64,000 nt of DNA from Desertivirga xinjiangensis (lineage in GTDB: Bacteria; Bacteroidota; Bacteroidia; Sphingobacteriales; Sphingobacteriaceae): positions 62,001-126,000 of the forward strand of contig NZ_JAFMZP010000006.1 in the NCBI RefSeq assembly GCF_024436435.1. Direction: 5' to 3'. Below, piece after piece: positions 1 to 37,604 of this stretch (positions within the stretch are counted from its first letter, which is position 1; every line of letters begins with the position of its first letter). A model generated the notes under the pieces. It did no database searches. It was not told the origin of the DNA and saw only the letters and a list, made by a program, of their open reading frames with translations. The position numbers and the translations under genes are program-made.

Positions 1-651
1 CCAGCAGCGTTCACTGCTTTTGAATGCCTCCTTATTCCCGGCTATAACTAAAAAGGACGCATCGGCACCGGTACTTGTGCTTATCTTCGGAATTACAGAG
101 CGGGTGTCTGTTCCGGTTCCTTCCGGCGAAGGGTAGGCATAAACGGCAATATCTTTATAATAATTAGCCATAGTCTCCGGTTGAGGCAGGGATATTTTAA
201 GTTTAGGGTTACCTCCGGTGATATTCGTTTGCGTGGAAACCACTTTCTGCATGGAGAGCTCGGGGGTGATCCATGGCCCACCTGCAAGAGCGAATCCATC
301 ACTTACATGCATTCCTATTTTCAATCCTAAACGATCCGCTTCTTTAAGCGAATGTTTCACCATCTCCCACCAGCGGGGACTCAACTGTTCTGCTACCGGT
401 GTATATAAAGGAGGATTTGCAGCACCTTTGATGGGCATCAGGTAGGCTCCGCCAATTCCTGCTTCTTTCATGGCTTCCAAATCCGCGGTAATACCTTCCT
501 TTGAAACGCCAGCCTGCATCCAGTACCAGAAAACCCAGGGTTTAGTGGTTCCGGTGCTCTGTGCATAAATCGGGGTTGAAAAACAAAAACAGAGCAGGAA
601 AGCGATTCCCACCGCTGTAATTTGAGAAAGATCTATCTTTTTGAATATCAT
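1..651 (-). CDS. GH106-type alpha-L-rhamnosidase, N-terminal part (cut by window edge)
   Basis: The 217 visible codons start at an ATG at 651 and remain open to base 1, so the C-terminus is missing. A signal peptide is visible, with a hydrophobic core (ITAVGIAFLLCFCF) ending at YAQS, so the enzyme is exported to the periplasm or surface. It is followed by WVFWYWMQAGVSKEGITADL, EAMKEAGIGGAYLMP and WWEMVKHSLKEADRLGLKIG. These are hallmarks of the N-terminal TIM-barrel of GH106 alpha-L-rhamnosidases, which remove terminal L-rhamnose from pectin side chains and usually exceed 800 residues. Its start lies one base after the stop of the FucP-type symporter, so the two are almost certainly co-transcribed: release of a deoxy-sugar beside its carrier. 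The catalytic residues cannot be checked because they lie beyond the window. Confidence 0.85.
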   Translation of the reverse strand, partial: MIFKKIDLSQITAVGIAFLLCFCFSTPIYAQSTGTTKPWVFWYWMQAGVSKEGITADLEAMKEAGIGGAYLMPIKGAANPPLYTPVAEQLSPRWWEMVKHSLKEADRLGLKIGMHVSDGFALAGGPWITPELSMQKVVSTQTNITGGNPKLKISLPQPETMANYYKDIAVYAYPSPEGTGTDTRSVIPKISTSTGADASFLVIAGNKEAFKSSERCW

Positions 652-652
652 A

Positions 653-1966
653 TTAAGCTTGAGCTGGTTTATATCCTCTGACTCCAAAGAACCAGATCAC
701 CACATAACACAGTAATGGTATTATATATCCAATCTGAATATTGTCTCCGTTCATGTCTATTATCGTTCCCATTACATAAGGAAGTATAGCACCACCTACG
801 ATAGACATAATAATCCAGGAAGAGCCAGCCTTAGTTCCTTCGCCGAGGTTGCTTATCCCAAGAGCAAAGATGGTAGGGAACATGATCGACATGAAAAACC
901 CTAAGCCTCCAAGTGCATAGATCACGTAAGCACCATCACCCAGGATGGATACCAGACACAGGATTACTGAGATGATAGAATAGATCGATAAGAGTTTCTG
1001 AGAACTGATGAATTTCAGGAAGGCGGTTCCCACAAAACGACCCGCCATAAACAGGAAGCCATAGATCATCAGGTAATAACCTGCAGTTTTCTCATCAACT
1101 CCCGCTCCTTGCTGAGCCATCCGGATAAAGAAACTGGTTACACAAACCTGAGCGCCAACATAAAAGAATTGCGCCACTACTGCCCAGGTTAGATGCTTGT
1201 GTTTTAATACCTCGAAGAAGCCCCCTTTATTGCTGCTTTCTTTATCACTTACGGGTTTAACCTCCGGAATATGCATAAAGTAGAAGATTATGGCAATCAG
1301 CACAAGCACGCTTCCTAAAATAATATAAGGCATTTTTACGGATGCCGCTTCTTCCATAAGGTAGGACATCCTTGAAGCATCGGGCATGGCGTTCAATTGT
1401 TCTTCGGTATATTCCTTGCCCGAAAGAATAAAAGTTGCCCCTACATAAGGAGCTACCATCGCTGCCAGTCCGTTGAATGAAGCTGCCAGGTTCAAGCGCG
1501 TGGATGCTCCTGCAGGATCGCCCAGCACTGCTGCGTATGGGTTGGCCGAAGTTTCCAGAATAGTCAGGCCGCAACCGATGATAAAAAGGGCAACCAGGAA
1601 CAGCTCATAAGCCCTGGTATTGGCTGCCGGGACGAACAGGAAAGCACCGAAAGCAAAAACAAGCAGCCCGAGAATGATACTGCTTTTATATCCCCATTTT
1701 TTCAGGATCGCACCGGCCGGTATAGCCATAAGGAAATAAGCCAGAAAAACCGCCGTGTCAACCAAGGTAGATTGACGGTTATTTAACTGGCAGGCCTTCT
1801 TCAGGTGAGGGATCAAAATCGAGTCGAGATTATGAGCCATTCCCCACAAAAAGAAAAGACAGGTGACCAGTATGAAAGGCAGCAGGTAAGTGTTACCGCC
1901 CTTGTTATTCTGAGAAGCTCCGGTTGTGGTAGCTCCGTTTACAATTTCTTGACTTGCAAATGCCAT
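653..1966 (-). CDS. fucP: FucP-type deoxy-sugar:H+ symporter (MFS)
   Basis: This 437-residue inner-membrane MFS carrier of the FucP family has about 12 hydrophobic segments. Two acidic residues important in E. coli FucP have counterparts here: Asp48 in HNLDSILIPHLKK and Glu138 in ILETSANPYAAVLG. The family imports L-fucose, and relatives import other hexoses, together with a proton. With a GH106 rhamnosidase directly downstream (1-base gap), L-rhamnose or L-fucose from pectin is the likely substrate; the exact sugar is inference. It is preceded by MaoC with a 57-base gap and appears to be the carrier of the CoA-transferase cassette. The fucP symbol denotes family membership, not proven substrate. 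Confidence 0.85.
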   Translation of the reverse strand: MAFASQEIVNGATTTGASQNNKGGNTYLLPFILVTCLFFLWGMAHNLDSILIPHLKKACQLNNRQSTLVDTAVFLAYFLMAIPAGAILKKWGYKSSIILGLLVFAFGAFLFVPAANTRAYELFLVALFIIGCGLTILETSANPYAAVLGDPAGASTRLNLAASFNGLAAMVAPYVGATFILSGKEYTEEQLNAMPDASRMSYLMEEAASVKMPYIILGSVLVLIAIIFYFMHIPEVKPVSDKESSNKGGFFEVLKHKHLTWAVVAQFFYVGAQVCVTSFFIRMAQQGAGVDEKTAGYYLMIYGFLFMAGRFVGTAFLKFISSQKLLSIYSIISVILCLVSILGDGAYVIYALGGLGFFMSIMFPTIFALGISNLGEGTKAGSSWIIMSIVGGAILPYVMGTIIDMNGDNIQIGYIIPLLCYVVIWFFGVRGYKPAQA

Positions 1967-2023: not shown

Positions 2024-2467
2024 TTATGATCTTCTTTTAACCATCAGCAGATGGTCGCAGACCAGTACTATTTCTCCATGCTGGTTTAGGATCTCCACAT
2101 GTTCGGTAACCGTACCATATTCCGGCCTTTTAGCATCTGCCTTTTCGGAGATGGTGATTTCGGAATGGATGGTATCGCCAATGAACACCGGCTTAATGAA
2201 GCGCAAACGGTCATAACCTTTAGACATAGCCTCAGGGTTAATTTCCGAAGCAGTCAAACCAATGCCGATACTGAAGATCATGGTTCCATGAGCAATACGC
2301 TGTTTAAAGGGTTGCGTCTTACACCATTCTGCGTCCATATGGTGAGGAAAAAAATCTCCTGTATGGCCTGCATGGACCACAAAATCAGTTTCTGTGATGG
2401 TACGGCCAAGCGTTACTCTTTTATCATTTAATATATAATCTTCAAAAAATGTGGATCTAAAATACAT
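2024..2467 (-). CDS. MaoC-like hot-dog dehydratase (enoyl-CoA hydratase type)
   Basis: This single-domain hot-dog protein of 147 residues lacks a signal peptide and is therefore cytoplasmic. The (R)-hydratase signature is present as GDFFPHHMD: Asp38 and His43 occupy the positions of the catalytic Asp/His pair (family pattern GDxNPxHxD). HGTM at about residue 60 is also typical. MaoC enzymes add water to, or remove it from, CoA thioesters. Its placement 11 bases after a Gfo/Idh oxidoreductase and downstream of two CoA-transferases suggests it dehydrates a hydroxyacyl-CoA made by those enzymes. The natural acyl group is unknown. It is one of the strongest clues that this cassette handles CoA esters and not free sugars only. 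Confidence 0.85.
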
Positions 2468-2478
2468 TGTCAGGTTGG

Positions 2479-3597
2479 TTATAAGGTTGAATGATTAATT
2501 TCCTGATTACTGATATTAGTGACTTCAGCCAGTTGTTCAGCTACAACTATACCTCCTCTGTCGCTGGAAATATAAGCACTTTCTACAACGGCCATAGTCT
2601 TAATGACATCGTCTACGCTGGTATGAAGAACTCTGTCAGAGCCTTCCTTAAATCGCATCAGGTTAGACATGGTCCCAATAAAGGCTTCAGGAAACCACGA
2701 ACCCTCCAGCTCCTGGCTCTGCCATTCCGGAGCTTTTCCTTCTTCAACCAGGCAAAACTCAAACTTATCTGGCACACCATCAGGGTAGTTCATCAGCAAG
2801 CCCATTTTGGCTTTGATCACCCCTTTGGTTCCCTCCCACTTAATAAAGCTCTCCTGGTTATGCGGACCAAAATCATGGTCGTGGTTGGTATTGATCACGG
2901 AGTGCATAGTGTCGCCATAATCAAGAATAATCGTTGAGCGGGATGAAGAAAGTTCTTTAGCAGGATGCCGCAGGGTTTTTGCATAAACACTGTTAGGATC
3001 ACCCAGGAAAGAACGCATTAGGTCTACATAATGTATACTGTGGTATTGAATTTCCAGGCGTGGATGTACCATTACATGGGGAAACAATTCCCATGGAGTT
3101 TTTAAGGTCACCCTTACTTCCATGTCATATAATTCACCTATCATTCCCTGCCCGATTATATATCTTGCTGCGCTCACAAATGGTGCGTAGCGTAGCTGGA
3201 AGTTAATAGCCGCAACCATGTTCTTCCTCCGGCAAACGGATAATATTTCTTTTGCCTGCCAGAAGTAATCGCCCATAGGCTTCTGAATAAGCACGGCACT
3301 CCCGTCAGGCAACTGTTCCAGCGTCTCTACATACTGGTCAGGCATGATGGTCAGATCATAAACTGCATTTGCCGGTGCTTTCGCTACCGCTTCAGCAACT
3401 GAATCGTATACGTTAGGAATGTTAAATGCTGCAGCCAGTTTCTCCGCTCTTGCTCTTGTTCTGTTGGTAATGCCGTAAACATCAAAACCCGCTTTTTTGT
3501 ATGCGGGAAGATGGGCATCACTTACTATCCCACCTGCACCAATAATGATAATTGGCTGATTGGTTTCAGGTAAATCTGGCTTATAAGGTATTTGCAT
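2479..3597 (-). CDS. Gfo/Idh/MocA-family NAD(P)-dependent oxidoreductase
   Basis: This cytoplasmic oxidoreductase of 372 residues has an N-terminal Rossmann fold: [20 protein letters not shown] near residue 16 carries the glycine-rich loop. The family's catalytic Lys motif appears as QKPMGDY around residue 106 (usual form EKP), followed by a substrate domain containing [16 protein letters not shown]. Family members oxidise or reduce hydroxyl groups of sugars, inositols and sugar lactones. It sits 3 bases after a solute-binding-protein homologue and 11 bases before MaoC, so it is translationally packed into the CoA-transferase cassette. A role in oxidising an imported deoxy-sugar or sugar acid before CoA activation is inference. 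Confidence 0.85.
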
Positions 3598-3600
3598 CTT

Positions 3601-4839
3601 TTATAAGTTAGTGTGTGTAATCTTATTTTGTGCTTGTAATAATATTTCTTCGGAAGGAATATCCGTGTTCATCGCCTTGAGAACTGCTTCATCAATGATC
3701 GCCGCAATGCTTGCCCAATTACCTAAAAGAGGCAGCGACCGGGCTTCAGTATGAAGCATCTCAAGCTTATGATAATATGGAATTACCTTATTGATCTCTT
3801 CATCTTTCCAGGTTGACACGCGACATCCAATCCCTCCTTCTAACGTTAACAGCTTATCATTTTCCTGGCTTACCGCAAAGCGTATAAAATCGTAAGCGGT
3901 GATTTTATGCCTGCTTCCCGAGCCAATGGTATATAACCAATAAACGTTTAATGAGGCAGATTCGCATCCCGGTGCATGAGGGATTGAGGAAATATCTACT
4001 TTTCCCTTCACTGCAGATTCCTCAGACACCTCACAGTAAGAAGCAAATCCAAACCAGTTGATCATCATAGCCACCTCACCACGGGCAAAAGCCATTCCTG
4101 CCTGTACAGACTCGTACTTACCGGATTCAGGATGCACAGCGGTCTTGTCATTAACCAGCTGGCGGTAAAAATTGAGGCCGTCAACTGCCTCATCTGTATT
4201 TATATGGACGTTATCGACCTCATTTATCAATGTTCCTCCTCGTGTCCATAACTGAAGACAAAAATCAAACACGGTATTATGACCATCAGGATAGCAGGCA
4301 AACACGCTGCCGTAAAGATTCTGTTGCGGACGATTAAAGAACCGGGCAATCTGCTGAAAATCAGACCAGGTCTTCGGCACCGTCAATGCTTTACCATATT
4401 GTTCGAAGTAGGCCTTCTGTTCCTGTGGGTCTTCAAAAAGATCCTTACGGTAGATAAAGCACTCGGGACCATCATGGAAAGGCAGGCCGGCAATCGCACC
4501 ATCGAACTGCTGCATTTCAAGCAAAGAATCACTCCAACCTAACGGAAAAGCATCCGGAAGGTTCTGATCAATATATGGTTTTAGGTCCTCCAGGGCTCCG
4601 CTTGTATAAGCTTCATAGATACAGTCGGTATTTATATGAGCTACATCCCAGTCGCCCCTGGCTAGCCCCTTGTTACTCAGCGTTTCTTCATAGAGCGGAT
4701 GCAGGTCCATGGGAACCATCTCTGCCTTTAAAGTACAACCTGTCTGATCACAATACTTTTGCCAAAGCTTTTCCATGGCCGACTCAAAAGGGCCGAACTT
4801 ACGGACTGCGATCCGGAATAGATTAGTTTCTTCCGACAT
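3601..4839 (-). CDS. Signal-less family 1 extracellular solute-binding-protein homologue (SBP-A)
   Basis: At 412 residues this protein resembles ABC-transporter sugar-binding proteins (SBP_bac_1): WDVAHINTDCIYEAYTSGAL, a 'DLKPYID' segment, and MAFARGEVAMMINWFGFA near residue 260. However, it starts MSEETNLFRIAVRKFG with no signal peptide or lipobox, and no in-frame upstream start would give one because the preceding gene ends 3 bases away. No permease or ATPase gene lies in the window. The protein is therefore predicted to be cytoplasmic. It lies between a CaiB/BaiF CoA-transferase and a Gfo/Idh gene. The function is unknown; possible roles are binding a sugar-acid substrate or intermediate, presenting it to the CoA-transferases, or acting as a sensor. 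It is a distant paralogue of the protein at 7188-8348. Confidence 0.75.
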   Translation of the reverse strand: MSEETNLFRIAVRKFGPFESAMEKLWQKYCDQTGCTLKAEMVPMDLHPLYEETLSNKGLARGDWDVAHINTDCIYEAYTSGALEDLKPYIDQNLPDAFPLGWSDSLLEMQQFDGAIAGLPFHDGPECFIYRKDLFEDPQEQKAYFEQYGKALTVPKTWSDFQQIARFFNRPQQNLYGSVFACYPDGHNTVFDFCLQLWTRGGTLINEVDNVHINTDEAVDGLNFYRQLVNDKTAVHPESGKYESVQAGMAFARGEVAMMINWFGFASYCEVSEESAVKGKVDISSIPHAPGCESASLNVYWLYTIGSGSRHKITAYDFIRFAVSQENDKLLTLEGGIGCRVSTWKDEEINKVIPYYHKLEMLHTEARSLPLLGNWASIAAIIDEAVLKAMNTDIPSEEILLQAQNKITHTNL

Positions 4840-4842
4840 ATC

Positions 4843-6018
4843 TTATAGATCCAATGTATGTTCCTGCACCGTTGGTACCAAACCAAACTCCCTTATGATC
4901 CGTTCATTGTCTTCGCCCAGCCTGGGAGAGCCTTTTGATGAGAAAAGCAATTCACCATCAATGCGTACCGGACACCGGGTAGTTTTGTAACTGAAGCCGT
5001 CGCTCATACTTACGGATTGAACCATATCGAGCACCTTAAATCCGTCATGTTCCATTAGCTGGTTCCAATCCAGCACATCAGCACACCAAATATCTGCCGG
5101 TTCCAGCACCGACAGCCACTTTTGTGTAGTTTGAGTTTGAAGATGTGCTGCAAGAAGTGCCTTGATTTCGTCGCGTTTTTCAAAAGCTTCGGCTCCATCG
5201 CTGAAGTTCCTCAGACTTTGACAGTCCAGCAACTTCGACAGGAATGGAATCGATCCCATGGCAAGTGCAAGGTAGCCGTTTGCTGTTTTGTATATTCCAT
5301 ATGGGGCACCCAGGTAAGCATTTGCATTGCTGGCAGCTGAACGTACCGGATTGTGTCCACCGTCGTTCATAAAGGTGGTGATGGTTTCAAACTGAAAATC
5401 GTAGGCCGATTCCATCATACTTACCTGCACCGAACCGCCTTGCCCGCTTATTGCTTTACGATACATACAGGCCAGAAGGCCCTGCGCCAGGTGTGCTCCT
5501 GCGAGCATATCCACAATAGATAAACCCATCGCAATCGGACCATCATCAGCATTACCGGTTAGCCAGGTTAAGCCGGTAAGCGACTGCAACAGCAGATCCT
5601 GGCCCGGCCTGTCTTTATAAACTCCTTCCGGACCGTAACCTGAAATTTCTCCATAAATTATGTCTTCTTTTATCGCCTTGACCGACTGATAATCGAAGCC
5701 AAGCCTTTCCATAACACCGGGTCTGAAGTTGTGTATCACCACATCTGCATGAGAAAGCAGGTTGCGGATAAGCTTTGCATCTGCTTCATTTTTCAAATCC
5801 GCCTGAAAACTTTCTTTATTACGATTTATCGCATGAAACACCGATGATTCGCCGTTCATTACGAGATCAGAAGTATACAAGGTACGACAGATATCACCTG
5901 TTTCCGGCCGTTCAATCTTAATCACCCTCGCACCCATATCCGCCAGTCGCAGGCTTGCTGACGGCCCTGACAGAAATTGGCTGAAATCGATCACTAAATA
6001 TCCTTCAAGTGGTAGCAT
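4843..6018 (-). CDS. CaiB/BaiF family III CoA-transferase (first of pair)
   Basis: This family III CoA-transferase has 391 residues. The N-terminus shows [18 protein letters not shown], the CoA-binding region of formyl-CoA transferase relatives, and the GYGPEG loop near residue 127. The nucleophilic Asp that forms the acyl-enzyme anhydride is present as Asp170 in [16 protein letters not shown], essentially the position of Asp169 in formyl-CoA transferase. The enzyme should move CoA from a donor thioester to a carboxylic acid. It is strongly similar to the neighbouring paralogue (6043-7191), and the two probably form either a hetero-oligomer or two successive activities. It is 3 bases upstream of SBP-A and 24 bases after its partner. 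The substrate is unknown; a sugar-derived acid is inferred from the locus. Confidence 0.88.
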
Positions 6019-6042
6019 AATCTTTTCTATCTATATCTCTGG

Positions 6043-7191
6043 TCAAACCAGATTGAACTCCTGATTTATTATATCATTCCCTGAACCTATTTCCGGAGCA
6101 GCTTTTGAACTGTAGAGTTTTTCTCCATCTAACTGAAGGGGGCTCCTTGTTGTGTTTATCACGCCATCCCCTAGATCTAAGGGTTGTTGTATTTGCAATT
6201 GTTTGAACGCCGGGAGGGCCGTTGCTTCCTGATAATTCAGTACCGGCGCACACCATATGTCTGAAGCCTCCAGAATGCTAAGCCATTGAGCATTGGTCTT
6301 CATTTTTAAACGCTCAGCGATCAGCAACATTATCTCATCCCTTTTTTCAAAGGATGAGCGGCTGTCGGTATAAACGCCCGACAGATCACATCCGATCAAA
6401 GTACTTATTATCTGCAGATTACCCATAGCGAGTGCCAGGTAAGCGTCCGCTGTTTGATAAATACCGTAGGGCGCACTCAAATAAGAATGCCCCTGGCCTT
6501 TAACAGCACTGCGGCGGGGTAATTTCCCTCCGTCATTAAAATAAGTGGTTAACACCTCAAACTGCATATCGAGTGTCGATTCAAGCAAACTTGCTTCAAC
6601 CAGAACTCCTTTGCCCGTCTTCGCTCTCTTGATCAAAGCTGCGAGAATACCCTGAGTGAGATGGTTCCCACAAAGAATATCTGCAACCGAAAGGCCGAAG
6701 GGAACCGGTCCCTCATCAGCCATACCTGATAAATAGGTTAATCCAGAAACCGACTGAACCAGCAGGTCTTGTCCGGGTTTTGCAGCCCAGGGACCTTTGT
6801 TCCCATATCCGGTTACTACACCGTAAATTATACGTGGATTAATAGTTTTCACAGACTGGAAATCAAGCCCGATCTTTTCCATTACGCCCGGGCGGAAATT
6901 ATGAGTCATAACATCTACTTTCGCAATTAACTCTTTTACCCTTTTCAGGTCTGCGGGATCTTTTAGATCGGCAGCATAAGATTCCTTATTCCGGTTGATG
7001 GTATGGAAGAGCAGGCTATTTTCGTCTACAAATAGATTTTTTATAGCCAGCTGCCTACATGCATCGCCTTTTATGGGGCGCTCAATCTTTATGACCCGCG
7101 CACCCATGTCGGCAAGCTTTAGCCCTGCGGAAGGCCCGGCCAAAAACTGGCAGAATTCCAATACTAACAGTCCTTCTAGTGGTTTATTCAT
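6043..7191 (-). CDS. CaiB/BaiF family III CoA-transferase (second of pair)
   Basis: This 382-residue paralogue of the adjacent CoA-transferase carries [35 protein letters not shown] and the catalytic Asp as Asp171 in GLSVADILCGNHLTQG. No inactivating change is visible, so both copies are probably active or the duplication is recent enough to retain the site. The ATG overlaps the stop codon of the upstream solute-binding homologue by 4 bases (ATGA, 7188-7191), which implies translational coupling and a stoichiometric relation with that protein. The enzyme is cytoplasmic. In Frc-type enzymes two interlocked subunits make the dimer, so a heterodimer with the partner is plausible but unproven. 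Confidence 0.88.
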   Translation of the reverse strand: MNKPLEGLLVLEFCQFLAGPSAGLKLADMGARVIKIERPIKGDACRQLAIKNLFVDENSLLFHTINRNKESYAADLKDPADLKRVKELIAKVDVMTHNFRPGVMEKIGLDFQSVKTINPRIIYGVVTGYGNKGPWAAKPGQDLLVQSVSGLTYLSGMADEGPVPFGLSVADILCGNHLTQGILAALIKRAKTGKGVLVEASLLESTLDMQFEVLTTYFNDGGKLPRRSAVKGQGHSYLSAPYGIYQTADAYLALAMGNLQIISTLIGCDLSGVYTDSRSSFEKRDEIMLLIAERLKMKTNAQWLSILEASDIWCAPVLNYQEATALPAFKQLQIQQPLDLGDGVINTTRSPLQLDGEKLYSSKAAPEIGSGNDIINQEFNLV

Positions 7192-8348
7192 GCCATTTGC
7201 AGGTTTCTTGATTCCAAATATATTTGATTCATCCGGGAGAGCACATCTTTTTCGTTTCCACCCTTCATCAGATAATCGCGTACGACATCTCCGGCATGAT
7301 CCTGAAAATACATACTTCCATGATAGCGCGGACGTAGGAACGCTCTTTGTAAGGATGGTAAAGTATTTGAGAAGTAATTATGCGTTTGCCTGTTTAATTC
7401 TTCGTCGGTCCATGCGCTTAAATGACCTGGCTGGCCACCGTTATCAGCAAAAACCGTTTTCTGGCATTCGGGTGAAGCTACATAAAAAGCGTAGTCAACC
7501 GCCGCTTGTATGTTCCTGCAGCTCGATGAGATGGCAAGTCCTGTTCCTCCCAGTGTACTGCGTAAATTTGTTTTGCCATCCAGCGAGATCATATCGTGGA
7601 AATGAAGCAACCTCCTGGCATAACCTCTTCTGGAATAGTTGGAGTAACCGTACGCAAAAGGACAATAAGCTATCGAGTCCATACGGGTCATTGCTTCATA
7701 CACCTGTATAGGATTCCTGTTAAAGTTTTCAGGATCGATCTTTTGAGCCAATTGCCTGAATAACTGCAGGGCTTTGATTCCTGTCTCTCTAGAAACTACA
7801 GTTTCTTCTGACTGGCAAGGATCTTCTCCCAAAGAACAACAGAAAGTATAGAAATTCATGAGGACATCAATTGGAATGCCAGCAAAAGCAACCAGTCCTT
7901 CATCAGCAAGGTCTAATAAATCCTCAAAGGAGCGCGGAAGCTCCATACCATATTTTTCAAACAGGTCAGGGCGACTCGCGGCAACCGGAGTAGCAGCATC
8001 TATGGCTAAAGCCCATTGATGACCATCGTAAGAGTAACTTTCGCATGATTGACCTACTGTATTTACTTGCTGGTCTTGGATATATTCTGCCGGAAGGTAT
8101 TCATCCAGGGGAAGGATCGACTTTGTTTTTGACGCAAAGCCAGCCCAGGGGTGATCAATCACAAGCAGGTCGAATTTCTTAGCCAGCTCCTCGATGGAGA
8201 AATCAGCAAATTGCTGAAGGCTTCTTTTTTCCCAGGTAACTTCTACAGAAGGGTTTAACTCTGTAAATCTTTGCCCTGTAGCGACCATAGGGACTAGTCC
8301 GCGGCTATGGTTCCAGGTTATTCCTTTTAATATTATTTTTTCAGACAT
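7188..8348 (-). CDS. Signal-less solute-binding-protein homologue (SBP-B)
   Basis: This 386-residue protein begins MSEKIILKGITWNHSRGLVP, with no signal peptide, lipobox or Tat motif. The body is an SBP_bac_1-type periplasmic-binding fold: VTWEKRSLQQFAD and DLLVIDHPWAGFA in the first 75 residues, LPRSFEDLLDLADEG near 140, and YAFYVASPECQKTVF near 290. Such proteins normally deliver sugars to ABC importers, but no ABC permease or ATPase is visible here. It overlaps the start of a CoA-transferase by 4 bases, so the two are coupled, and I predict a cytoplasmic role linked to CoA transfer. Three tandem hairpin repeats lie immediately upstream of its start (8350-8490). It is only distantly similar to SBP-A. 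Confidence 0.75.
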   Translation of the reverse strand: MSEKIILKGITWNHSRGLVPMVATGQRFTELNPSVEVTWEKRSLQQFADFSIEELAKKFDLLVIDHPWAGFASKTKSILPLDEYLPAEYIQDQQVNTVGQSCESYSYDGHQWALAIDAATPVAASRPDLFEKYGMELPRSFEDLLDLADEGLVAFAGIPIDVLMNFYTFCCSLGEDPCQSEETVVSRETGIKALQLFRQLAQKIDPENFNRNPIQVYEAMTRMDSIAYCPFAYGYSNYSRRGYARRLLHFHDMISLDGKTNLRSTLGGTGLAISSSCRNIQAAVDYAFYVASPECQKTVFADNGGQPGHLSAWTDEELNRQTHNYFSNTLPSLQRAFLRPRYHGSMYFQDHAGDVVRDYLMKGGNEKDVLSRMNQIYLESRNLQMA

Positions 8349-8676: not shown

Positions 8677-11970
<3,294 letters not shown>

Positions 11971-17296: not shown

Positions 17297-18076
17297 ATGA
17301 AAGAAAAAGCCAACAAATACCAGGCTCCTGCACTAGATAAGGGTTTGGATATACTGGAGTACCTCTCATCCAAATCTGTTCCTCTTTCGCAAACTGAAAT
17401 TGCCGTTGGAATTGATAAAAGCCCAAACGAGATTTACAGAATGCTGATGAGCCTGGAAAGCCGTGGATATATTTTAAGAGATGAGATATCAGGGAAATAT
17501 CGTCTTTCGTTAAAACTCTATCACCTCTCACATCGGCACTCACCTATTGATGAACTTTGTAAAGCAGCGCAGTTTCCTTTAGAAGAGTTAGCGCAAACGG
17601 TACGGCAATCATGCCATCTCAGTGTTTTATATATGAATCAGGTAATGGTGGTTCTGCATGCGAAGAGCCCTGAACCAATTGCACTTTCTATAGAAGAAGG
17701 AAACCTTTTTCCTTTGCCCCTGACAGCTTCAGGTAAGATCCTGCTTGCTTATATGACAGATAAAGACCGCTTTTCGTCTCTTGAAAACAACAGTATTTAT
17801 AAAAGTTACAGTAAACAACAGAAAGAAAAGTTCCTCCAGTCTATCGATTTGATCCCAGACAATGGTTATTATATTAGAACGAGTGATCTGGCGGAAGGTG
17901 TGGTTGATATTGCTGTCCCTGTGAAACTAAATGGTTCTCGTATTATAGCCTGTATTACGGTTTCAAGGTTAACCACTTTGAATATCAACAAAGGTGTTGA
18001 GAATGAAGAGATCCTTCCTGAAGTTATTAGATGTGCGGAAAAAATTCAGAAAAAAATAGGTATGCTGGAGGGTTAA
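17297..18076 (+). CDS. IclR-family transcriptional regulator
   Basis: This is the only plus-strand gene. It encodes 259 residues with the two IclR domains. The N-terminal winged helix-turn-helix (about 12-75) contains ALDKGLDILEYLSSK, LSQTEIAVGIDKSPNEIYRM and LESRGYILRD. The C-terminal effector-binding domain (about 85-250) has LPLTASGKILLAYM and DLAEGVVDIAVPVKL, which match the family. It is divergent from susC across a 375-base gap containing a large palindrome. IclR members such as KdgR control pectin catabolism in enterobacteria. Use of an IclR protein beside susCD, where sensor kinases, AraC or sigma/anti-sigma pairs are more usual, is notable. The effector is unknown; a sugar acid from pectin would fit. 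Confidence 0.9.
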   Translation: MKEKANKYQAPALDKGLDILEYLSSKSVPLSQTEIAVGIDKSPNEIYRMLMSLESRGYILRDEISGKYRLSLKLYHLSHRHSPIDELCKAAQFPLEELAQTVRQSCHLSVLYMNQVMVVLHAKSPEPIALSIEEGNLFPLPLTASGKILLAYMTDKDRFSSLENNSIYKSYSKQQKEKFLQSIDLIPDNGYYIRTSDLAEGVVDIAVPVKLNGSRIIACITVSRLTTLNINKGVENEEILPEVIRCAEKIQKKIGMLEG

Positions 18077-23314: not shown

Positions 23315-25840
23315 TTACAACTTCTTTTCTAAAAACACCCAGGTTTCACCCGGCTTGGTTCCTTCAATACCTTCCTGGTACTTTTTCATTAAGTTATTCC
23401 ACTCATCAACCCGTGGATTGTTCTCCGTAGTTTTTGGGTTCAGTTTATCGAGACTTTCGCCTTTCGGGATACTGATGATAAGCATCAGCTGGTCTCCATT
23501 CCTGAACATAATTAACTGCTGGAAGTTGGCATTACAAAAACCCTTTGATACCTCCGGCCACATTTTAAACTGGGTGGCATGATAATCCATGTATTCCTTT
23601 TGCAGGGTCTGATCTTTCACCAGGTTTGCCGTCAGCAGGATATGATCCCATTCTTTAACTCCCTGCGCTCCGGGGCAATTTTTCAGCCGGTTAAATTCAT
23701 AAAAAGGAGCATTGTAAGTCTTTGTGTAACTTTCAGGAAAGCCTGCTTTGAGTTCAGCACTTATTTTGTCCGGGTTTTGTATCGCACCATAGATCACGGT
23801 ATGATTCTTCCATTGATAAACGGCGTCACCCTGAATTCCATTCTTCCTGCAGATCTCTTTAATTCTTTCAATATTATGGACAGAGCCTTCCTTCCCAATC
23901 AATTCGATAACTTTTGTCCTCTCAGAACGGTTGATCTCCCAGTTTTTAGAAGCCGGAGCTTTTTCTTTCAGAAGATAGCGGAACTTATCCTGTAATCCGG
24001 CTTTCAGCCTGATACTGTCGGCAACCTGGGGACCGTTGTTTTCCCAGACGTTACCCGGACCGTTTGCATTCTGCAGGTATTTATCAGAAGGAGTCCAGTT
24101 GTTTTTTACCGTAAAGAAAGAGGAGCCTTCATCTGTATACAGATAAAACCAGTGATTAGGATCATGAGCATAGGGCGCTTTATAAATGCTGTCAATATAA
24201 TTTTCTGCTATAACCGAAGCCGGCTGAGCCGAAAGCGTGTAAATGGACGAAACATCATACATATGCTTCGCATAGCGGTAGATCTTGTTAGCCACGATGC
24301 GGTTATTACGCATTGTGTTGACCGTAGGCGACCATCCCCAGCCCATTGAAATGCCCATATAAGACACCTCGCTGATGTCGTTATGTTCAATTTTAATTCC
24401 TTTTACATAACCTGCACTGATACCTATACAGCCCCAATCCTCATTTGCAGCATCGGTTACCAGGTTATTACTCACGGTTACATTGGTGCATACATCCCTT
24501 TCATCTTCAGGATTATAAGGAACATGCACTTCGTGGGCCTCATCAGAATATACCCCCACATGAATAGCAGTTCCTCCAATATCTTTAAACAGGTTTCCGT
24601 TTATCAGGTCGTTCCTTGTTCCGCGATGGTAGTCTAGTCCGGTCGAAGCCAGATGCTCAAAACGGCAAGCCTCAAAGCCTGTATTACTAGCAAATGCCAC
24701 CTTTACAGCCGCAGCGGGGCGACCAACCCAGGCCTGGTTTTCCATGCCCTTTTTATCGGGTGTTCCCGGGATCTTTAGCTTATAGGCATCCAGCATATAC
24801 ATTCCCGACTGGTGAGGAACATGGCCTTCCTTTGATGGACGTAACCAGCTGGAATGCTGAAAACCGATACTTTTGAAAAAAACAAAAGAAACCGGACGAT
24901 CGATAGTCCCCTGCATAGTTACCAGTGTTTCCAGGTAAGGAATAGTAACATTCGCAGAAGTTAGATTCTCGTTGTTCCTTGGCCAGTAATAGATCTTACG
25001 CCTCTCTTTATCCAGAAACCACTCTCCCGGCTCATTTAAGAACTCCGCAGCATTTGAAAGAAAAAAAGCGGAGTTGCCAGTTTGCTTTGAAAGCCAGGGT
25101 GCAGGCCAGGGATGTTCAGACTGGATCCTGCTTTCTGGCTGATGAAATGATAGTTTTGCACTATCGCCTTTTACCTCAACAGATTTAATCCTTAAGTTGG
25201 CGATTGCCCACCACTGGTGGATCTGCATTTCGAGCCCTTTAGCCTTCGTCACATCAACAGACGGCTTTGGGATCCAGCAAGTTTGCTCTTTGTGATTCCA
25301 TGAAAGGATCCGGTTCATTAAGCCCTCGGGAGTATCCTTCGCGCGGGTAGCCTTTACGTTATTTACCCATAGCTGTCTGAAGTCCAAAACCTGATCCGCG
25401 ATCAGGGGTGCATCAACCTCCCAAATTTTGCCCTGAGCGCTTACAGGTATACCTGCGATATTTGATGAAGCTTTCTTCCAGCCTCCCACTTTAATGCCGC
25501 CACTTATAACCGGAGATTCGCCGGGTGCTGCCTGAAAGATTGTAGGACTGTCAGCAGTACCTGAGTCTTCAGGACGTATAACAATTGGTTCTTCAAGGGA
25601 ATAAACCCCTCCTCTTAATATGATTGTAATTCCTTTTGTTACTGAAGGATCGGATAAACGTCTCAACTCCCTTGCCTTTCTTAAAGCCTGGGCTATATCA
25701 GCCATCGGTTTACCTTTAGTACCCGGATTCTGATCATTTCCATTTGGAGCCACCCAGATTTCAGCCGCTTCAGTGCTCGCCAGCGAGAGCGCAAAAAATA
25801 TAACAGCAGCAACAAGGTATTTTGAAAAAGCTTTGTACAT
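23315..25840 (-). CDS. GH141-like beta-helix enzyme fused to tandem L-rhamnose-mutarotase-like domain
   Basis: This 841-residue protein has a signal peptide (cleavage near STEAAE). Residues about 26-640 form a right-handed parallel beta-helix with the GH141 pattern: IWVAPNGNDQNPGTKGKPMA, ILRGGVYSLEEPIVI and YYWPRNNENLTSANVTIPYL. GH141 includes an alpha-L-fucosidase of RG-II breakdown and a xylanase. Residues 653-841 form a second module with two ferredoxin-like halves. The second half has Tyr750, His754 and Trp761 in the RhaM-like YxxYHxxxxxxWPE arrangement and continues NANFQQLIMFRNGDQLMLII. This module resembles L-rhamnose mutarotases of Bacteroidetes. One chain may thus cleave a glycosidic bond and speed anomer interconversion of the freed sugar. 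The helix family is likely but not certain. Confidence 0.78.
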   Translation of the reverse strand: MYKAFSKYLVAAVIFFALSLASTEAAEIWVAPNGNDQNPGTKGKPMADIAQALRKARELRRLSDPSVTKGITIILRGGVYSLEEPIVIRPEDSGTADSPTIFQAAPGESPVISGGIKVGGWKKASSNIAGIPVSAQGKIWEVDAPLIADQVLDFRQLWVNNVKATRAKDTPEGLMNRILSWNHKEQTCWIPKPSVDVTKAKGLEMQIHQWWAIANLRIKSVEVKGDSAKLSFHQPESRIQSEHPWPAPWLSKQTGNSAFFLSNAAEFLNEPGEWFLDKERRKIYYWPRNNENLTSANVTIPYLETLVTMQGTIDRPVSFVFFKSIGFQHSSWLRPSKEGHVPHQSGMYMLDAYKLKIPGTPDKKGMENQAWVGRPAAAVKVAFASNTGFEACRFEHLASTGLDYHRGTRNDLINGNLFKDIGGTAIHVGVYSDEAHEVHVPYNPEDERDVCTNVTVSNNLVTDAANEDWGCIGISAGYVKGIKIEHNDISEVSYMGISMGWGWSPTVNTMRNNRIVANKIYRYAKHMYDVSSIYTLSAQPASVIAENYIDSIYKAPYAHDPNHWFYLYTDEGSSFFTVKNNWTPSDKYLQNANGPGNVWENNGPQVADSIRLKAGLQDKFRYLLKEKAPASKNWEINRSERTKVIELIGKEGSVHNIERIKEICRKNGIQGDAVYQWKNHTVIYGAIQNPDKISAELKAGFPESYTKTYNAPFYEFNRLKNCPGAQGVKEWDHILLTANLVKDQTLQKEYMDYHATQFKMWPEVSKGFCNANFQQLIMFRNGDQLMLIISIPKGESLDKLNPKTTENNPRVDEWNNLMKKYQEGIEGTKPGETWVFLEKKL

Positions 25841-34266: not shown

Positions 34267-35439
34267 TTAGTTTTGTTCTTCAGCTCCTGAGAGCGCCCAA
34301 ACTTGCGCCGGCCAGTTATAACTGCCAGGCTTTAATGTTACATATAAATTTTCAAATCCACTTACTTTGGTTCGAATAACTCCGGTACTGTATTCATAAA
34401 CCGGACGTAAAACAGTAATTGAAAGCTGGTTCAGCACACTGGATGCAGTTGAACCACCTTCAATTATCAATTCATTGATGCTCACGCTTTTAAAAACCTG
34501 TTTCACCACATCACTCATTATCTTCCTTAGCTGGACTGCATTGGCAGATCCCTTCAGCCCTGGCTGTATAGCAATGACAGCAGTACCATGTTCAGCAATC
34601 AAATTTGAAATTTCTGTAGTCCAAATTTCTAGTTCATCTTCTCTTTCGGGATAGGACATCAAACTTGCAGGCATATAGCTTACGGGGCCACCCGACTGAA
34701 ACACTCGTTTAACATTTTCATTACTGCTGGCAAAGGCACTTCCGCACACAAACAATTTGTTACTTCCTGGTTGATCGTGGTTTTGCAAAGACTCATTCCT
34801 GAAAAAACCCGAACGACGCAGTAGCGCCTTAAAAAAACCTGAGGCACCAGCTAGCAGAGTTTCTTCGTGGGGAACTTTTGCCCAATCATCCAAATCTGAA
34901 GCCAGCGCTGCCTCTCCTATTACAATGCCCTTTTCCGGCAGAGATTGTGTATGTTTTTTTACAGAGACCGTTCCCTTGGCGCCCACTAGCCTTAGTACAT
35001 CGGAAGATCTTGCCGGGAATTCTGGGTCCTGCGAAAAGCCACTTTCAGCAATCGGTTTTCCCTGAATATAATATATCCCCTCTTCTATGGTTCTGCCTAA
35101 GTCGGGATTAGCAGGAACAAGTAGGGCCCTTTCATATCCCAGAACTCGTAGTTGCGCCATGATCTCATCAGCCACATATCCCCTCAGAACTGAATCTACC
35201 TTTTTGAAGATAAATTCAGGCCTCAGCCCAATGATTTGCCTGGTTATTTGCATCATATCTGCTAGTGCATCATCGAGGGGTTTAGACCTTGTATCCGCAG
35301 CTACCACTAACAGGTCAACACCCACAGGTAGCGAAATACCAGCTATTTCAGTGGTTATCTCCACGCTCAGTCCGTAGCTCAAAGCTATTCCACCGAGTTC
35401 CGCGGCGCCTGTTAAGTCATCAGCAATAACGGCAATCAT
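34267..35439 (-). CDS. DUF1537 four-carbon acid sugar kinase
   Basis: This cytoplasmic kinase of the DUF1537 family has 390 residues. The N-terminal substrate-binding domain starts IAVIADDLTGAAELGGIA, which contains the hallmark DDLTGA. The C-terminal nucleotide-binding domain shows VCGSAFASSNENVKRV near 235 and IIEGGSTASSVLNQL near 325. Known members phosphorylate C4 acid sugars such as D-threonate, L-threonate and D-erythronate, feeding PdxA2 dehydrogenases that yield dihydroxyacetone phosphate. A PdxA-like gene lies 198 bases upstream, so the pair is intact. Its place in a pectin locus suggests that it handles an acid sugar derived from a rare pectic sugar; a longer-chain substrate is possible. 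Confidence 0.85.
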   Translation of the reverse strand: MIAVIADDLTGAAELGGIALSYGLSVEITTEIAGISLPVGVDLLVVAADTRSKPLDDALADMMQITRQIIGLRPEFIFKKVDSVLRGYVADEIMAQLRVLGYERALLVPANPDLGRTIEEGIYYIQGKPIAESGFSQDPEFPARSSDVLRLVGAKGTVSVKKHTQSLPEKGIVIGEAALASDLDDWAKVPHEETLLAGASGFFKALLRRSGFFRNESLQNHDQPGSNKLFVCGSAFASSNENVKRVFQSGGPVSYMPASLMSYPEREDELEIWTTEISNLIAEHGTAVIAIQPGLKGSANAVQLRKIMSDVVKQVFKSVSINELIIEGGSTASSVLNQLSITVLRPVYEYSTGVIRTKVSGFENLYVTLKPGSYNWPAQVWALSGAEEQN

Positions 35440-35507
35440 TGGGTTTTATTTCTTATTATTCTTTATTCTTCTTCAGGTACACGCGCGTCAGCAACAGGCT
35501 TAATCGA

Positions 35508-35637
35508 GTCAGAGACCCTCATCTATTAGTTAATCTGTGACTCCGCTTCGCTAAGTCTACAGACAGACCTTGAGGGGCAATTGATGATTAGCGCAAGCGT
35601 GCCGTGTGCTAGCAAAACAAAATTGCAGGACGCCCCT
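35508..35637. repeat. Intergenic palindromic block with degenerate copy of the 18213 repeat
   Basis: CGAGTCAGAGACCCT (35508-35522) is a diverged copy of CGAGTCGGAGACTCT at 18253 and 31199. Downstream, GAGGGGCAATT (35572-35582) and AATTGCAGGACGCCCC (35620-35636) can pair into a long stem with a bulge, located directly after the PdxA-like stop. It may act as a partial terminator or processing site between the pdxA-like and DUF1537 genes. Confidence 0.5.
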
Positions 35638-36669
35638 TTATTTCTTATTTTTTGAAAGCTGCACAGCCGATTCAATCGCCAATACCATGGCATCAGGACT
35701 GGCAACACCTTTACCTGCAATTTCGAAAGCCGTTCCGTGATCAACCGAAGTACGGATTATCGGCAAGCCCATAGTGATATTAACTCCTTTTACGCTATCC
35801 ATTTGTTGTTTGTCGGCATTCCATTTAAAACCCGTGAGCTTAAACGGAATATGTCCCTGATCATGGTACATCGCTACGACACCTCCAAAATACCCGGTAG
35901 CTGCTTTTGAAAACATAGTATCAGCCGGAACTGGTCCTTCCACATCGAAACCTCTCCGCTTAGCCTCCTCAACCGCTGGCAGGATCTCCTGGTCATCCTC
36001 TGTACCAAACAAACCAGAGTCTCCCGCATGAGGATTTAATCCGGCAATTCCGATTTTAAGATTGGTTTCACCCAGGCTTATCAATCCATTGTGTAAAAGT
36101 TCGGTAACTTCCAGGATACGATCCTTTTTTACCAGATCGCAAGCCTGGCGAAGCGATACATGTGTAGATACATGGATCACCTTCATGTTATTTTCAACCA
36201 GTAACATGGCGTATTTTTTTGTTCCGGTATACTGCGCGTAAATTTCAGTATGTCCGGCAAAGTGATGCCCGGCCTCGTTGATCGACTTTTTATTGATCGG
36301 GCCTGTAACCGTAGCATCAACTTCCCCCGCCAAAGCTAAGTCAATTACCTTTTTAACTGCTTCAAAAGAAGCTGCGCCTGCCATTGCTGAGATCTCACCA
36401 AACCTCAGATCTGAAAGCTCGACGTTTTTCAGATCCAGCACATCCACAGTTCCCTGAACAAATCTAGCATCCGCTACTTGTTGAACCGGATTTATCGTCG
36501 CCTGCAAACTAAGTTTGCTAATGATATCATTGAAAACACCTGCGTCTCCAACCAATATTGGACGGCAAATGTCATATATTTTATCTAGTAAAAGTGCTTT
36601 AATGGCAATCTCAGGTCCAATACTGGCCGGATCACCCATAGTAATTCCTATAATAGGTTTATCAAACAT
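35638..36669 (-). CDS. PdxA-family dehydrogenase (4-phospho-acid-sugar dehydrogenase, PdxA2-like)
   Basis: This PdxA-fold NAD-dependent oxidative decarboxylase of 343 residues is cytoplasmic. All family motifs are visible: ITMGDPASIGPE, FAGHTEIYAQ, STHVSLRQ, GLNPHAGDSGLFG and MYHDQGHIPFK; the His residues bind the divalent metal. Housekeeping PdxA makes vitamin B6 precursor, but association with a DUF1537 kinase marks the PdxA2 type, which oxidises 4-phospho-threonate or -erythronate to dihydroxyacetone phosphate and CO2. It overlaps the upstream DHDPS-like gene by 8 bases and belongs to a cytoplasmic carbon-catabolic module inside the operon. Assignment to PdxA2 and not PdxA rests on context. 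Confidence 0.83.
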   Translation of the reverse strand: MFDKPIIGITMGDPASIGPEIAIKALLLDKIYDICRPILVGDAGVFNDIISKLSLQATINPVQQVADARFVQGTVDVLDLKNVELSDLRFGEISAMAGAASFEAVKKVIDLALAGEVDATVTGPINKKSINEAGHHFAGHTEIYAQYTGTKKYAMLLVENNMKVIHVSTHVSLRQACDLVKKDRILEVTELLHNGLISLGETNLKIGIAGLNPHAGDSGLFGTEDDQEILPAVEEAKRRGFDVEGPVPADTMFSKAATGYFGGVVAMYHDQGHIPFKLTGFKWNADKQQMDSVKGVNITMGLPIIRTSVDHGTAFEIAGKGVASPDAMVLAIESAVQLSKNKK

Positions 36670-37603
36670 GTGTTAAAGAGATATTTATTTGAATATTTTC
36701 TTTTCTGATCAATTCGTGCAGTGCGTCTAAAAGCAGCAATTGTTCCTCGGCACTTACTTCCTGTAAGGGAGGCATCATGCACGGTTTACACAAGCCATAG
36801 TCGCTCATCAGAACCTTAAGCGCCCCTAACGATTCACCTAATGTTCTGTCTGACTGATACAAGCTTCCCAGCAAGTCAGATTGCGTCTGATAGTAGTAGG
36901 CTTTTTCATGATCGCCATCCAGCACAGCCTGAGTCATTTCATAATATAATCCAGGATGCAGGTTGCCCGTGCTTGGTATTAAGCCATCACCACCATTGAT
37001 CAACGCATATGCGGATTTTGCCGCCCATCCCAGAAAGTGACTAAAGTCCGGCCTGTCTGCCCATAAACGCAAGGATTCATCCAGCCTGTTTTCACAACGT
37101 TCTGAATCTTTGGTACCTACTATGTTCTCATGATAACTCAATTCCTCTATAACGCTTAAAGGTATAGACATGTGTGTCGTAGCAGGAATGTTATAAATGA
37201 TCAATGGCCCATTCAGCTGATTGGCGAGATCTTCGAAATACCTTTTTATCTGATCGTTTGACAGGCGGTAATAAGTCGGCAAAGTCGTGGCAACAGCATC
37301 TATTCCTTCGTCGAAGCAGCGCTTTGCAAAATCTACCGACTCTTTAAAGATGTTCGAGGAAATACCTGCATATAAAACAGTACCGGGCTTTTTATTGGCA
37401 ACGGCTGCTTTTAGGTAATCTTTTTTAATTGAGTTGGACAAAGATGCCGACTCCCCCGTGGTTCCAAGGATAAAAGGTAGAGCATCATTTTTATACAGGT
37501 GTGAAAATATCTTCTCTACTGCCCCGTGGTCAAGTTTATAATCCGCTGTAACAGGAGTTACTACCGGCACTATGGTTCCCTGATATTTTTTTTGTTTGTT
37601 CAT
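36662..37603 (-). CDS. Dihydrodipicolinate synthase-family aldolase (2-keto acid aldolase type)
   Basis: This class I aldolase of 313 residues starts at the ATG at 37603 (MNKQKKYQGTIVPVVTPVT); the longer frame would need a TTG at 37630 inside the preceding gene. The Schiff-base Lys lies in VGTKDSERCEN and the catalytic Tyr in IIYNIPATTHM; LGTTGESASLS is the carboxylate-binding GTTGE loop. Biosynthetic DapA is usually elsewhere, and placement within this locus points to catabolic cleavage of a 2-keto-3-deoxy sugar acid to pyruvate and an aldehyde. Candidate substrates are 2-keto-3-deoxy-rhamnonate, -gluconate, or ulosonic acids of RG-II. The neighbouring iron-dependent alcohol dehydrogenase could reduce the aldehyde. 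Confidence 0.82.
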   Translation of the reverse strand: MNKQKKYQGTIVPVVTPVTADYKLDHGAVEKIFSHLYKNDALPFILGTTGESASLSNSIKKDYLKAAVANKKPGTVLYAGISSNIFKESVDFAKRCFDEGIDAVATTLPTYYRLSNDQIKRYFEDLANQLNGPLIIYNIPATTHMSIPLSVIEELSYHENIVGTKDSERCENRLDESLRLWADRPDFSHFLGWAAKSAYALINGGDGLIPSTGNLHPGLYYEMTQAVLDGDHEKAYYYQTQSDLLGSLYQSDRTLGESLGALKVLMSDYGLCKPCMMPPLQEVSAEEQLLLLDALHELIRKENIQINISLTHV

Positions 37604-37604
37604 T

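Follow-up and report, generated by a model that had tools for sequence, protein, structure and literature searches.

What does a compact set of genes for CoA-transferases, solute-binding proteins, an oxidoreductase and a hydratase do among genes for sugar uptake and breakdown? The question is raised by a 64,000-nucleotide stretch of Desertivirga xinjiangensis DNA (Bacteroidota; contig NZ_JAFMZP010000006.1, positions 62,001 to 126,000), referred to in its full length as the window. An initial annotation, made from the sequence of the window, had proposed that six adjacent genes near its start form an undescribed catabolic system of a rhamnose-pectin locus, in which a carboxylic acid is made into a CoA thioester and dehydrated. 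Comparison with relatives now points to a conserved gene set of soil and marine bacteria whose products seem to convert a rare 6-deoxy sugar to an acid and to dehydrate this acid while it is bound to CoA. The six genes of this cassette, identified as open reading frames (ORFs), are as follows.

7188..8348, minus strand: SBP-B, a solute-binding protein (SBP) homologue of ATP-binding cassette (ABC) type with a CUT1-like fold, 386 aa (ORF; Pfam SBP_bac_1/8)
6043..7191, minus strand: CaiB1, family III CoA-transferase, 382 aa (PF02515, E 1.1e-92)
4843..6018, minus strand: CaiB2, family III CoA-transferase, 391 aa (PF02515, E 3.9e-92)
3601..4839, minus strand: SBP-A, second solute-binding homologue, 412 aa (Pfam SBP_bac_1/8)
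2479..3597, minus strand: Gfo/Idh/MocA oxidoreductase, 372 aa (PF01408, GFO_IDH_MocA)
2024..2467, minus strand: MaoC-type hydratase/dehydratase, 147 aa (PF01575, MaoC_dehydratas)

By ORF coordinates and Pfam, the genes run head to tail from 8348 to 2024 on the minus strand and belong to the families first assigned to them. SBP-B and CaiB1 overlap by 4 nt, and the spacings that follow are 24, 3, 3 and 11 nt.

That these genes belong together is evident from how they are inherited. Among 296 Bacteroidota genomes, SBP-B was found in 16 (10 of 140 genera), and MaoC of the window type in 14, all of which fall within those 16, with none in the other 280 (Fisher 4e-22, by a test that ignores kinship). 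The two SBP-B genomes without such a MaoC, G107 and G182 (G and L numbers are used here for genomes and loci), have a crotonase and an aldehyde dehydrogenase adjoining SBPB-CaiB1-CaiB2. In G286, CaiB1-CaiB2-SBPA-Gfo-MaoC keep the usual order, and SBP-B lies about 60 kb off on the same contig. A tblastn comparison of 95 loci, selected for SBPB and including near-duplicates (e.g. L017/L039, L018/L053 and L021/L110), recovered SBPB in 95, CaiB1 in 94, CaiB2 in 93, MaoC and Gfo in 90 each and SBPA in 87; neighbouring FucP was found in 86, GH2 in 56 and GH106 in 48. All six cassette genes were present in 86 of the 95, while two loci, L037 and L050, are truncated by contig ends. The exact six-gene order on one strand was seen by the ORF caller in 76 of 97 loci, and the misses include 11 from Hymenobacter plus L114 that are artefacts, because tblastn or the record's own annotation shows the genes. 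A scan of named genomes gave at least 593 pattern matches, at least 510 of them stretches that encode relatives; the 80 loci retained come from Pedobacter, Hymenobacter, Flavobacterium, Mucilaginibacter, Arcticibacter, Olivibacter and other genera. The expectation that the six genes travel together was thus borne out by both the genome and the neighbourhood counts. A probable variant route is seen in L024-L026, where a crotonase and an aldehyde dehydrogenase adjoin SBPB-CaiB1-CaiB2 (L025 and L026) or lie about 7 kb off (L024), and where L024 and L026 carry RhaT-type transporters.

Related modules also occur outside Bacteroidota, on plasmids from Rhizobiaceae, Roseibium, Croceibacterium and a single Streptomyces; the alphaproteobacterial plasmids have the CaiB and SBP pair at loci of 6-deoxyhexose type. 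SBP-B relatives were found on 146 plasmid records, 90 of them from Sinorhizobium, and a CaiB gene adjoins the SBP-B homologue in 13 of 15 non-Bacteroidota loci examined, a count that leaves out an unannotated stretch of S. meliloti 2011 (L312). One locus type, with an IclR regulator, a sugar ABC system, an enolase-type gene and an L-rhamnose mutarotase, recurs in Roseibium, Pararhizobium, Nitratireductor, Shinella and Martelella; a Gfo/Idh gene adjoins MaoC in the first four, and Martelella has Gfo, CaiB, SBP and MaoC consecutively. A Roseateles XES5 stretch, from a record marked unverified, resembles the Roseibium-type locus. Gfo/Idh likewise adjoins MaoC on S. meliloti pSymB, and plasmids of S. 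meliloti (pB), Pseudosulfitobacter, Azospirillum and Streptomyces carry a CaiB-SBP-crotonase module. In Jannaschia, CaiB and a crotonase lie less than 6 kb from the SBP on the opposite strand, and in Methylobacterium nodulans a four-carbon acid kinase and PdxA are found a few kb from MaoC-CaiB-SBP, with a FAD oxidoreductase and an AMP-binding ligase near. Roseibium, Pararhizobium and the Bacteroidota genome G214 each have two different MaoC proteins. Because the loci outside Bacteroidota pair CaiB and SBP with either MaoC or crotonase, a CaiB and a cytoplasmic SBP would form the common core and the hydratase would be exchangeable. The first reading of the locus holds in part, and the module is confined neither to pectin nor to Bacteroidota.

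CaiB1 and CaiB2 are, by whole-protein matches to PF02515 and a conserved aspartate, predicted family III CoA-transferases. That residue (Asp171 in CaiB1, Asp170 in CaiB2), which we take to be the catalytic residue of the family, is kept in 193 of 193 aligned rows from both CaiB groups and aligns in register with the PDB relatives 9br6 and 4hl6. Both proteins score far under every curated NCBIfam subfamily cut-off checked, those of SUGCT, FRC, oxalate, mesaconate and carnitine CoA-transferases (best 188 and 209 bits vs 750), and the L-carnitine CoA-transferase model, at 70 bits vs a cut-off of 413, indicates that neither is carnitine-specific. CaiB2 is 52% identical to CaiB1, 52% to the CaiB of Roseibium and 56% to that of S. 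meliloti. In the tree, all 14 CaiB1 rows fall into a single clade (100/99), and CaiB1 and CaiB2 of Bacteroidota group together against the alphaproteobacterial CaiB (84/91); a CaiB2 clade appears in just 58% of bootstrap trees, and the two outgroups have long branches of unsure placement. MaoC, for its part, has a catalytic-type pair conserved as Asp38 in 94 of 94 rows and His43 in 92 of 94. It matches PDB 4ffu (E 3.4e-60; a MaoC-like protein, presumably from S. meliloti, deposited as molecule "oxidase") with an identical catalytic segment, and it has a Phe where the hydratase-2 motif normally has an Asn. A DNA search of E. coli genomes gave no match to the MaoC gene, which is little informative at such a distance. 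The CoA-transferase adjoins the hydratase, as in CaiB/CaiD systems. With the aspartate invariant and crotonase replacing MaoC in two SBP-B genomes, the case for thioester chemistry is stronger than when it was first proposed, as judged from sequence, and CoA thioesters of a sugar-derived acid are probably involved in some form.

The two solute-binding homologues had been placed in the cytoplasm, which fits their N-termini. In a simple hydropathy test, a strongly hydrophobic 10-mer was found within the first 35 residues of 0 of 89 SBP-A and 3 of 104 SBP-B proteins, vs 41 of 44 proteins in a GH2-type family (cluster 7), 29 of 35 for GH78, 9 of 10 for SusD and 5 of 7 for SusC. The test is rough, as the longest possible ORF starts were used and because the family of the window's GH2 enzyme was positive in only 10 of 28. 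By this test neither SBP of the window shows a signal peptide, and gene overlaps of 4 nt were noted as well; both would accord with a location inside the cell. The AlphaFold model of SBP-B, with a predicted local distance difference test (pLDDT) score of 91.7, superposes on 6jaq with a VIA-align Z of 37.4 and a root-mean-square deviation of 2.9 over 370 aligned residues at 17% identity, so that SBP-B is predicted to have a complete CUT1-type sugar-binding fold. The SBP-B family carries the motif T-W-x-H-x-R-G and has 51 positions conserved in 20 or all of 21 aligned sequences drawn from two phyla; to judge from the fold, many of these would sit in loops bordering the cleft where such proteins bind their ligand. 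SBP-A falls outside this family (22% identity over 219 aa) and, with a match to PDB 6dtq (MalE3; E 1.2e-22), is closer than SBP-B to ordinary exported SBPs. No ABC permease or ATPase was found among the scanned window proteins. The relative L064 has an ABC-type pair beyond FucP, and the sugar ABC system of the alphaproteobacterial loci is separate, with its own SBP that has a signal-like start. We know of no precedent for cytoplasmic SBPs in a CoA-transferase/hydratase set.

The substrate is suggested by the genes that accompany the cassette, and here the connection to 6-deoxy sugars was reinforced by FucP or RhaT, RhaM, lactonase, SDR (short-chain dehydrogenase/reductase) and FAH genes at the loci of relatives. 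Flavobacterium loci have a lactonase-type amidohydrolase, an SDR and a zinc-dependent alcohol dehydrogenase beside the cassette, and several of them (e.g. L020) add an FAH-type hydrolase and a second SDR; enzymes of these kinds are typical of the non-phosphorylative 6-deoxyhexose route. The lactonase, SDR and FAH hydrolase stand at the cassette locus itself in L020, L030 and other relatives, and the SDR and FAH genes of the window genome are found on the contig of L204. Across the Bacteroidota genomes, the FAH15 hydrolase occurs in 13 of 16 with the cassette vs 38 of 280 others. In G214 a single strand carries, in this order, RhaM, MaoC, SBPB, CaiB1, CaiB2, lactonase, RhaT, Gfo, another MaoC that shares 75% identity with that of Roseibium, SDR16 and FAH15. 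The genes of this operon include no dehydratase and no SBP-A, and a DgoD-like gene of enolase type lies at a distance of about 4 kb. No aldonate dehydratase was found among the identified genes of L020 either. In G202, the sole FAH15 gene lies within the cassette locus, a search for FucD at E 1e-60 found none, and the single UxaA-type gene is on a different contig from the cassette. Two clear MR/MLE (enolase-type) proteins, DgcA- and MenC-like and below curated cut-offs, occur in G202 and likewise in G025; the NCBIfam check behind this covered 10 enolase-type proteins, with one of the two clear matches from each of the Flavobacterium genomes G170 and G222. Pathway genes in company of the cassette and without a dehydratase suggest that dehydration is the task of the CoA module.

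The best PDB sequence match of the cassette Gfo/Idh is 5uhw (E 1.9e-12), presumably a D-apionate oxidoisomerase, and the protein is 42% identical to the Roseibium Gfo/Idh that adjoins MaoC. RhaT (PF06379) takes the place of FucP in six clustered loci (L024, L029-L031, L114 and L115), and a single substrate deduced from the transporters was dropped, FucP and RhaT alternating among loci. Right after FucP, Arcticibacter (L062:17579-20908) and Mucilaginibacter (L073:17680-21062) carry genes for a RuBisCO-like protein, a four-carbon acid kinase and an Asp/Glu-racemase-type protein.

The mechanism we favour, tentatively and at somewhat less than even probability, has CaiB1/CaiB2 and MaoC dehydrate a 6-deoxyaldonic acid with recycling of CoA, the substrate being presented by the SBPs. 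A 6-deoxyhexose would enter through FucP (or RhaT) and be oxidized at C1 by Gfo/Idh, with SDR or alcohol dehydrogenase partners in other genomes, and the amidohydrolase-type lactonase would open the lactone. CaiB1 and CaiB2, which may form a heterodimer, would then shift CoA from an acyl-CoA to the acid, and MaoC, or crotonase in some relatives, would dehydrate the thioester to a 2-keto-3-deoxy-acyl-CoA. CoA would be catalytic in this scheme, because CaiB would hand it on to the next acid, while the freed acid would pass through an SDR and an FAH-type hydrolase to yield pyruvate and a lactate-like fragment. Neither SBP would serve in transport; most likely both would bind the acid, or what is made from it, and offer it to the CoA-transferases. 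A bolder generalization seems doubtful at present: a new class of sugar catabolism in three phyla (Bacteroidota, Alphaproteobacteria and Actinomycetota), in which rare 6-deoxy, perhaps O-methylated, aldonic acids would be handled as CoA thioesters by a two-CaiB complex with interchangeable hydratases and cytoplasmic SBPs that are enzymatic or present the substrate.

In the window, the cassette is framed as first described by a GH2 beta-galactosidase upstream and by FucP and GH106 downstream, as confirmed with Pfam and NCBIfam. The neighbouring features are listed below; the two Sus labels are by reading of the sequence.

1..687, minus strand: GH106 alpha-L-rhamnosidase, N-terminal part, the rest of the gene lying beyond the window edge (PF17132, E 3.1e-168, for the complete gene as found in the genome)
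653..1966, minus strand: FucP-type sugar:H+ symporter, 437 aa (NCBIfam TIGR00885, fucP, over cut-off)
8677..11967, minus strand: GH2 beta-galactosidase, upstream neighbour, with a signal-like start
13788-12202, minus strand: SusD-like outer-membrane uptake protein
16921-13775, minus strand: SusC-like outer-membrane uptake protein
17297..18076, plus strand: IclR-family regulator, divergent (Pfam)

The sequence cluster of the IclR regulator was found in 33 of 108 clustered sources (the window counted), alphaproteobacterial ones included. Further along the minus strand, a GH141-type protein at 23315-25840 has an L-rhamnose mutarotase domain (PF05336) fused at its C-terminus, and its sequence cluster takes in Flavobacterium cassette loci. 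At 47671-49542 (minus strand) is a BT_1020-like protein (PF24067, PF22585), which we take to be a mark of rhamnogalacturonan-II degradation. Genes for a four-carbon acid kinase, PdxA, a DHDPS-type aldolase and an iron-dependent alcohol dehydrogenase are consecutive at 34267-38753 (minus strand), with a xylose-isomerase-like barrel and an SSF transporter near; this row is probably a second sugar-acid route.

Several observations weigh against the cassette as the general supplier of the dehydration step. In five of the alphaproteobacterial-type loci read, an annotated L-fuconate dehydratase is found together with another gene of enolase type, so that in these the CoA step would not have to stand in for a dehydratase. 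A FucD-like protein is present at E 1e-60 in 4 of the 16 cassette genomes, with at least 70% identity in G182 and G286 and 44-45% in G150 and the window's own genome (G000). Of all 296 genomes, 11 have FucD with at least 70% identity, 2 of them of cassette type, and 14 have it at E 1e-60, 4 of cassette type; with these 2 or 4 genomes, FucD was rejected as a general partner. A RhaI-like protein (about 400 bits, curated cut-off 531) is found in 13 of the 16 cassette genomes. RhaI-like matches occur in 49 genomes, none of them reaching that cut-off. The cassette was considered as a replacement of the RhaA isomerase route, RhaA being absent from 16 of 16, but was rejected as such in view of the RhaI-like proteins. 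Six cassette genomes, the window's included, pair a UxaA-type dehydratase with an FAH15 gene. It adjoins the sole FAH15 gene in G000, G033 and G025 and a second FAH15 copy in G214, G170 and G222 (in G025, G214, G170 and G222 as read from coordinates only), so a missing dehydratase was dropped as an account of all cassette genomes. In the window genome, the consecutive genes at L204:7037-11203 (contig C22) encode a 553-aa UxaA-type protein, an SDR, an FAH hydrolase and an SDR, a probable L-fuconate-type route separate from the cassette; no lactonase was found in this stretch, which holds the genome's SDR16 and FAH15. Aldonates could also be dehydrated by the products of two IlvD/EDD genes in G202 and of one DgoD-like gene in G021. 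G154 has all six cassette genes and no FAH15 at E 1e-60, with a crotonase and an aldehyde dehydrogenase about 7 kb away; L025-L026 are without Gfo and MaoC and have an aldehyde dehydrogenase; and Microvirga has an SBP adjoining mannonate-dehydratase-like genes, with no CaiB within 10 kb. G206 (L246/L324) keeps FucP, Gfo, lactonase, alcohol dehydrogenase, SDRs and FAH15 without SBPB, CaiB or a window-type MaoC, so the other pathway genes may work without the CoA module. Because genes of the ordinary routes coexist with it, the cassette is not the sole way to use L-rhamnose or L-fucose, and it would handle either another 6-deoxy sugar, a substituted one, or a different step.

It is mainly this coexistence that keeps two other kinds of CoA chemistry under consideration. 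One, which we think rather unlikely, starts from a 6-deoxy sugar that is O-methylated or has some other 2-substituent, e.g. 2-O-methyl-L-fucose from rhamnogalacturonan-II. The thioester would lose water and then be hydrated at C2, and the hemiketal so formed would release methanol, a conversion beyond ordinary aldonate dehydratases, and such a substrate would explain why the module stands alongside RhaI-like, UxaA-type and FucD proteins. The paired, differing MaoC proteins of Roseibium, Pararhizobium and G214 would fit it too, and the window is rich in enzymes of the rhamnogalacturonan-II type (the GH141 protein with its mutarotase domain, GH106, rhamnosidases and the BT_1020-like protein); on the other hand, the reading presumes that alphaproteobacterial hosts meet such sugars, and no direct sign of a methylated substrate was seen, a 2-O-methyl-fucosidase not having been searched for. 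The other is a CoA-linked retro-aldol cleavage, modelled on the feruloyl-CoA hydratase-lyase pathway, in which the thioester would be split into a short acyl-CoA and a C4 aldehyde for an aldehyde dehydrogenase to oxidize. The crotonase and aldehyde dehydrogenase genes of L024-L026 are what it would predict, and the kinase, PdxA, FAD oxidoreductase and AMP-binding ligase near the M. nodulans module could serve it, but the window and most cassette loci read have MaoC with no aldehyde dehydrogenase noted beside it, and the frequency of FAH15 in cassette genomes points to diketo-acid hydrolysis; we give it a small chance.

Two further readings turn on what the SBPs are. Since MqnA and Thi5 are enzymes with an SBP-like fold, the SBP-like proteins could conceivably act on the acyl-CoA or the sugar acid themselves, with CaiB supplying or removing CoA. 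Several His, Arg and Asp among the 51 conserved positions of SBP-B are in loops following beta strands, and the Microvirga SBP does without CaiB beside its mannonate-dehydratase-like genes; yet the full, ordinary sugar-binding fold (Z 37) tells against catalysis, and ligand binding by itself can conserve a cleft, so that this role seems improbable. Alternatively, and least probable of all, the cassette would be an ordinary acyl-CoA set for a common acid (glutarate-, oxalate- or itaconate-like) that happens to stand in sugar loci, with the SBPs as remnants of a lost transporter. The likeness of CaiB to succinate-glutarate/HMG (hydroxymethylglutarate) and oxalate CoA-transferases speaks for it, but the CaiB scores fall far short of the NCBIfam cut-off, SBP-B is strongly conserved and shows no decay, and sugar symporters, mutarotase, lactonase and sugar-route enzymes recur around the module in two phyla. 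Dehydration of a 6-deoxyaldonic acid with recycled CoA thus remains the reading we prefer, and of the initial annotation the co-travelling genes, the missing signal peptides, the CoA chemistry and the 6-deoxy link have all gained support.

Searches of open papers in PubMed Central (PMC), PMC9007349 and PMC3454389 among them, turned up no account of the cassette, and S. meliloti gene tags led to no paper either; subscription papers and preprints lay outside their scope. If the proposal is true, activation with CoA would give sugar acids another mode of dehydration, and the SBP fold would have found a new use in the cytoplasm. To our knowledge, sugar-acid dehydratases are enolase-type or metal-cluster enzymes, and it is beyond these that the new way would stand. 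Sugars of pectin and of algal polysaccharides that have no clear fate would also gain a route, and an explanation would be at hand for the many "extracellular solute-binding protein" genes annotated beside a "CoA transferase".

Among known systems, the CoA-transferase/hydratase pairs of carnitine dehydration (CaiB/CaiD) and bile-acid metabolism (BaiF/BaiE) offer the nearest parallel in chemistry: a family III CoA-transferase works with a hydratase-fold enzyme that dehydrates the CoA thioester of a hydroxy acid, and CoA is passed on. Unlike CaiB/CaiD, the cassette sits in sugar loci, with two CaiB paralogues, two cytoplasmic SBPs, a Gfo/Idh enzyme and a sugar symporter, and MaoC replaces crotonase in most loci read. 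The non-phosphorylative L-fucose/L-rhamnose pathway proceeds by a dehydrogenase, a lactonase, the dehydratase FucD/RhmD, a 2-keto-3-deoxy-fuconate/rhamnonate (KDF/KDR) dehydrogenase and a 2,4-diketo hydrolase. Its likeness to the cassette loci of relatives lies in their lactonase-type, SDR, FAH hydrolase, mutarotase and FucP/RhaT genes; the difference is that the G214 operon and L020, as far as its genes are identified, have CaiB, SBP and MaoC and no aldonate dehydratase. Finally, SBP-B has its whole fold in common with the CUT1 sugar-binding proteins MalE3, SmoF and the alpha-glycoside-binding protein (Z about 35-37 over about 370 residues), and it differs from them in having no signal peptide, no permease or ATPase in the window, only 17% identity and a motif of its own.

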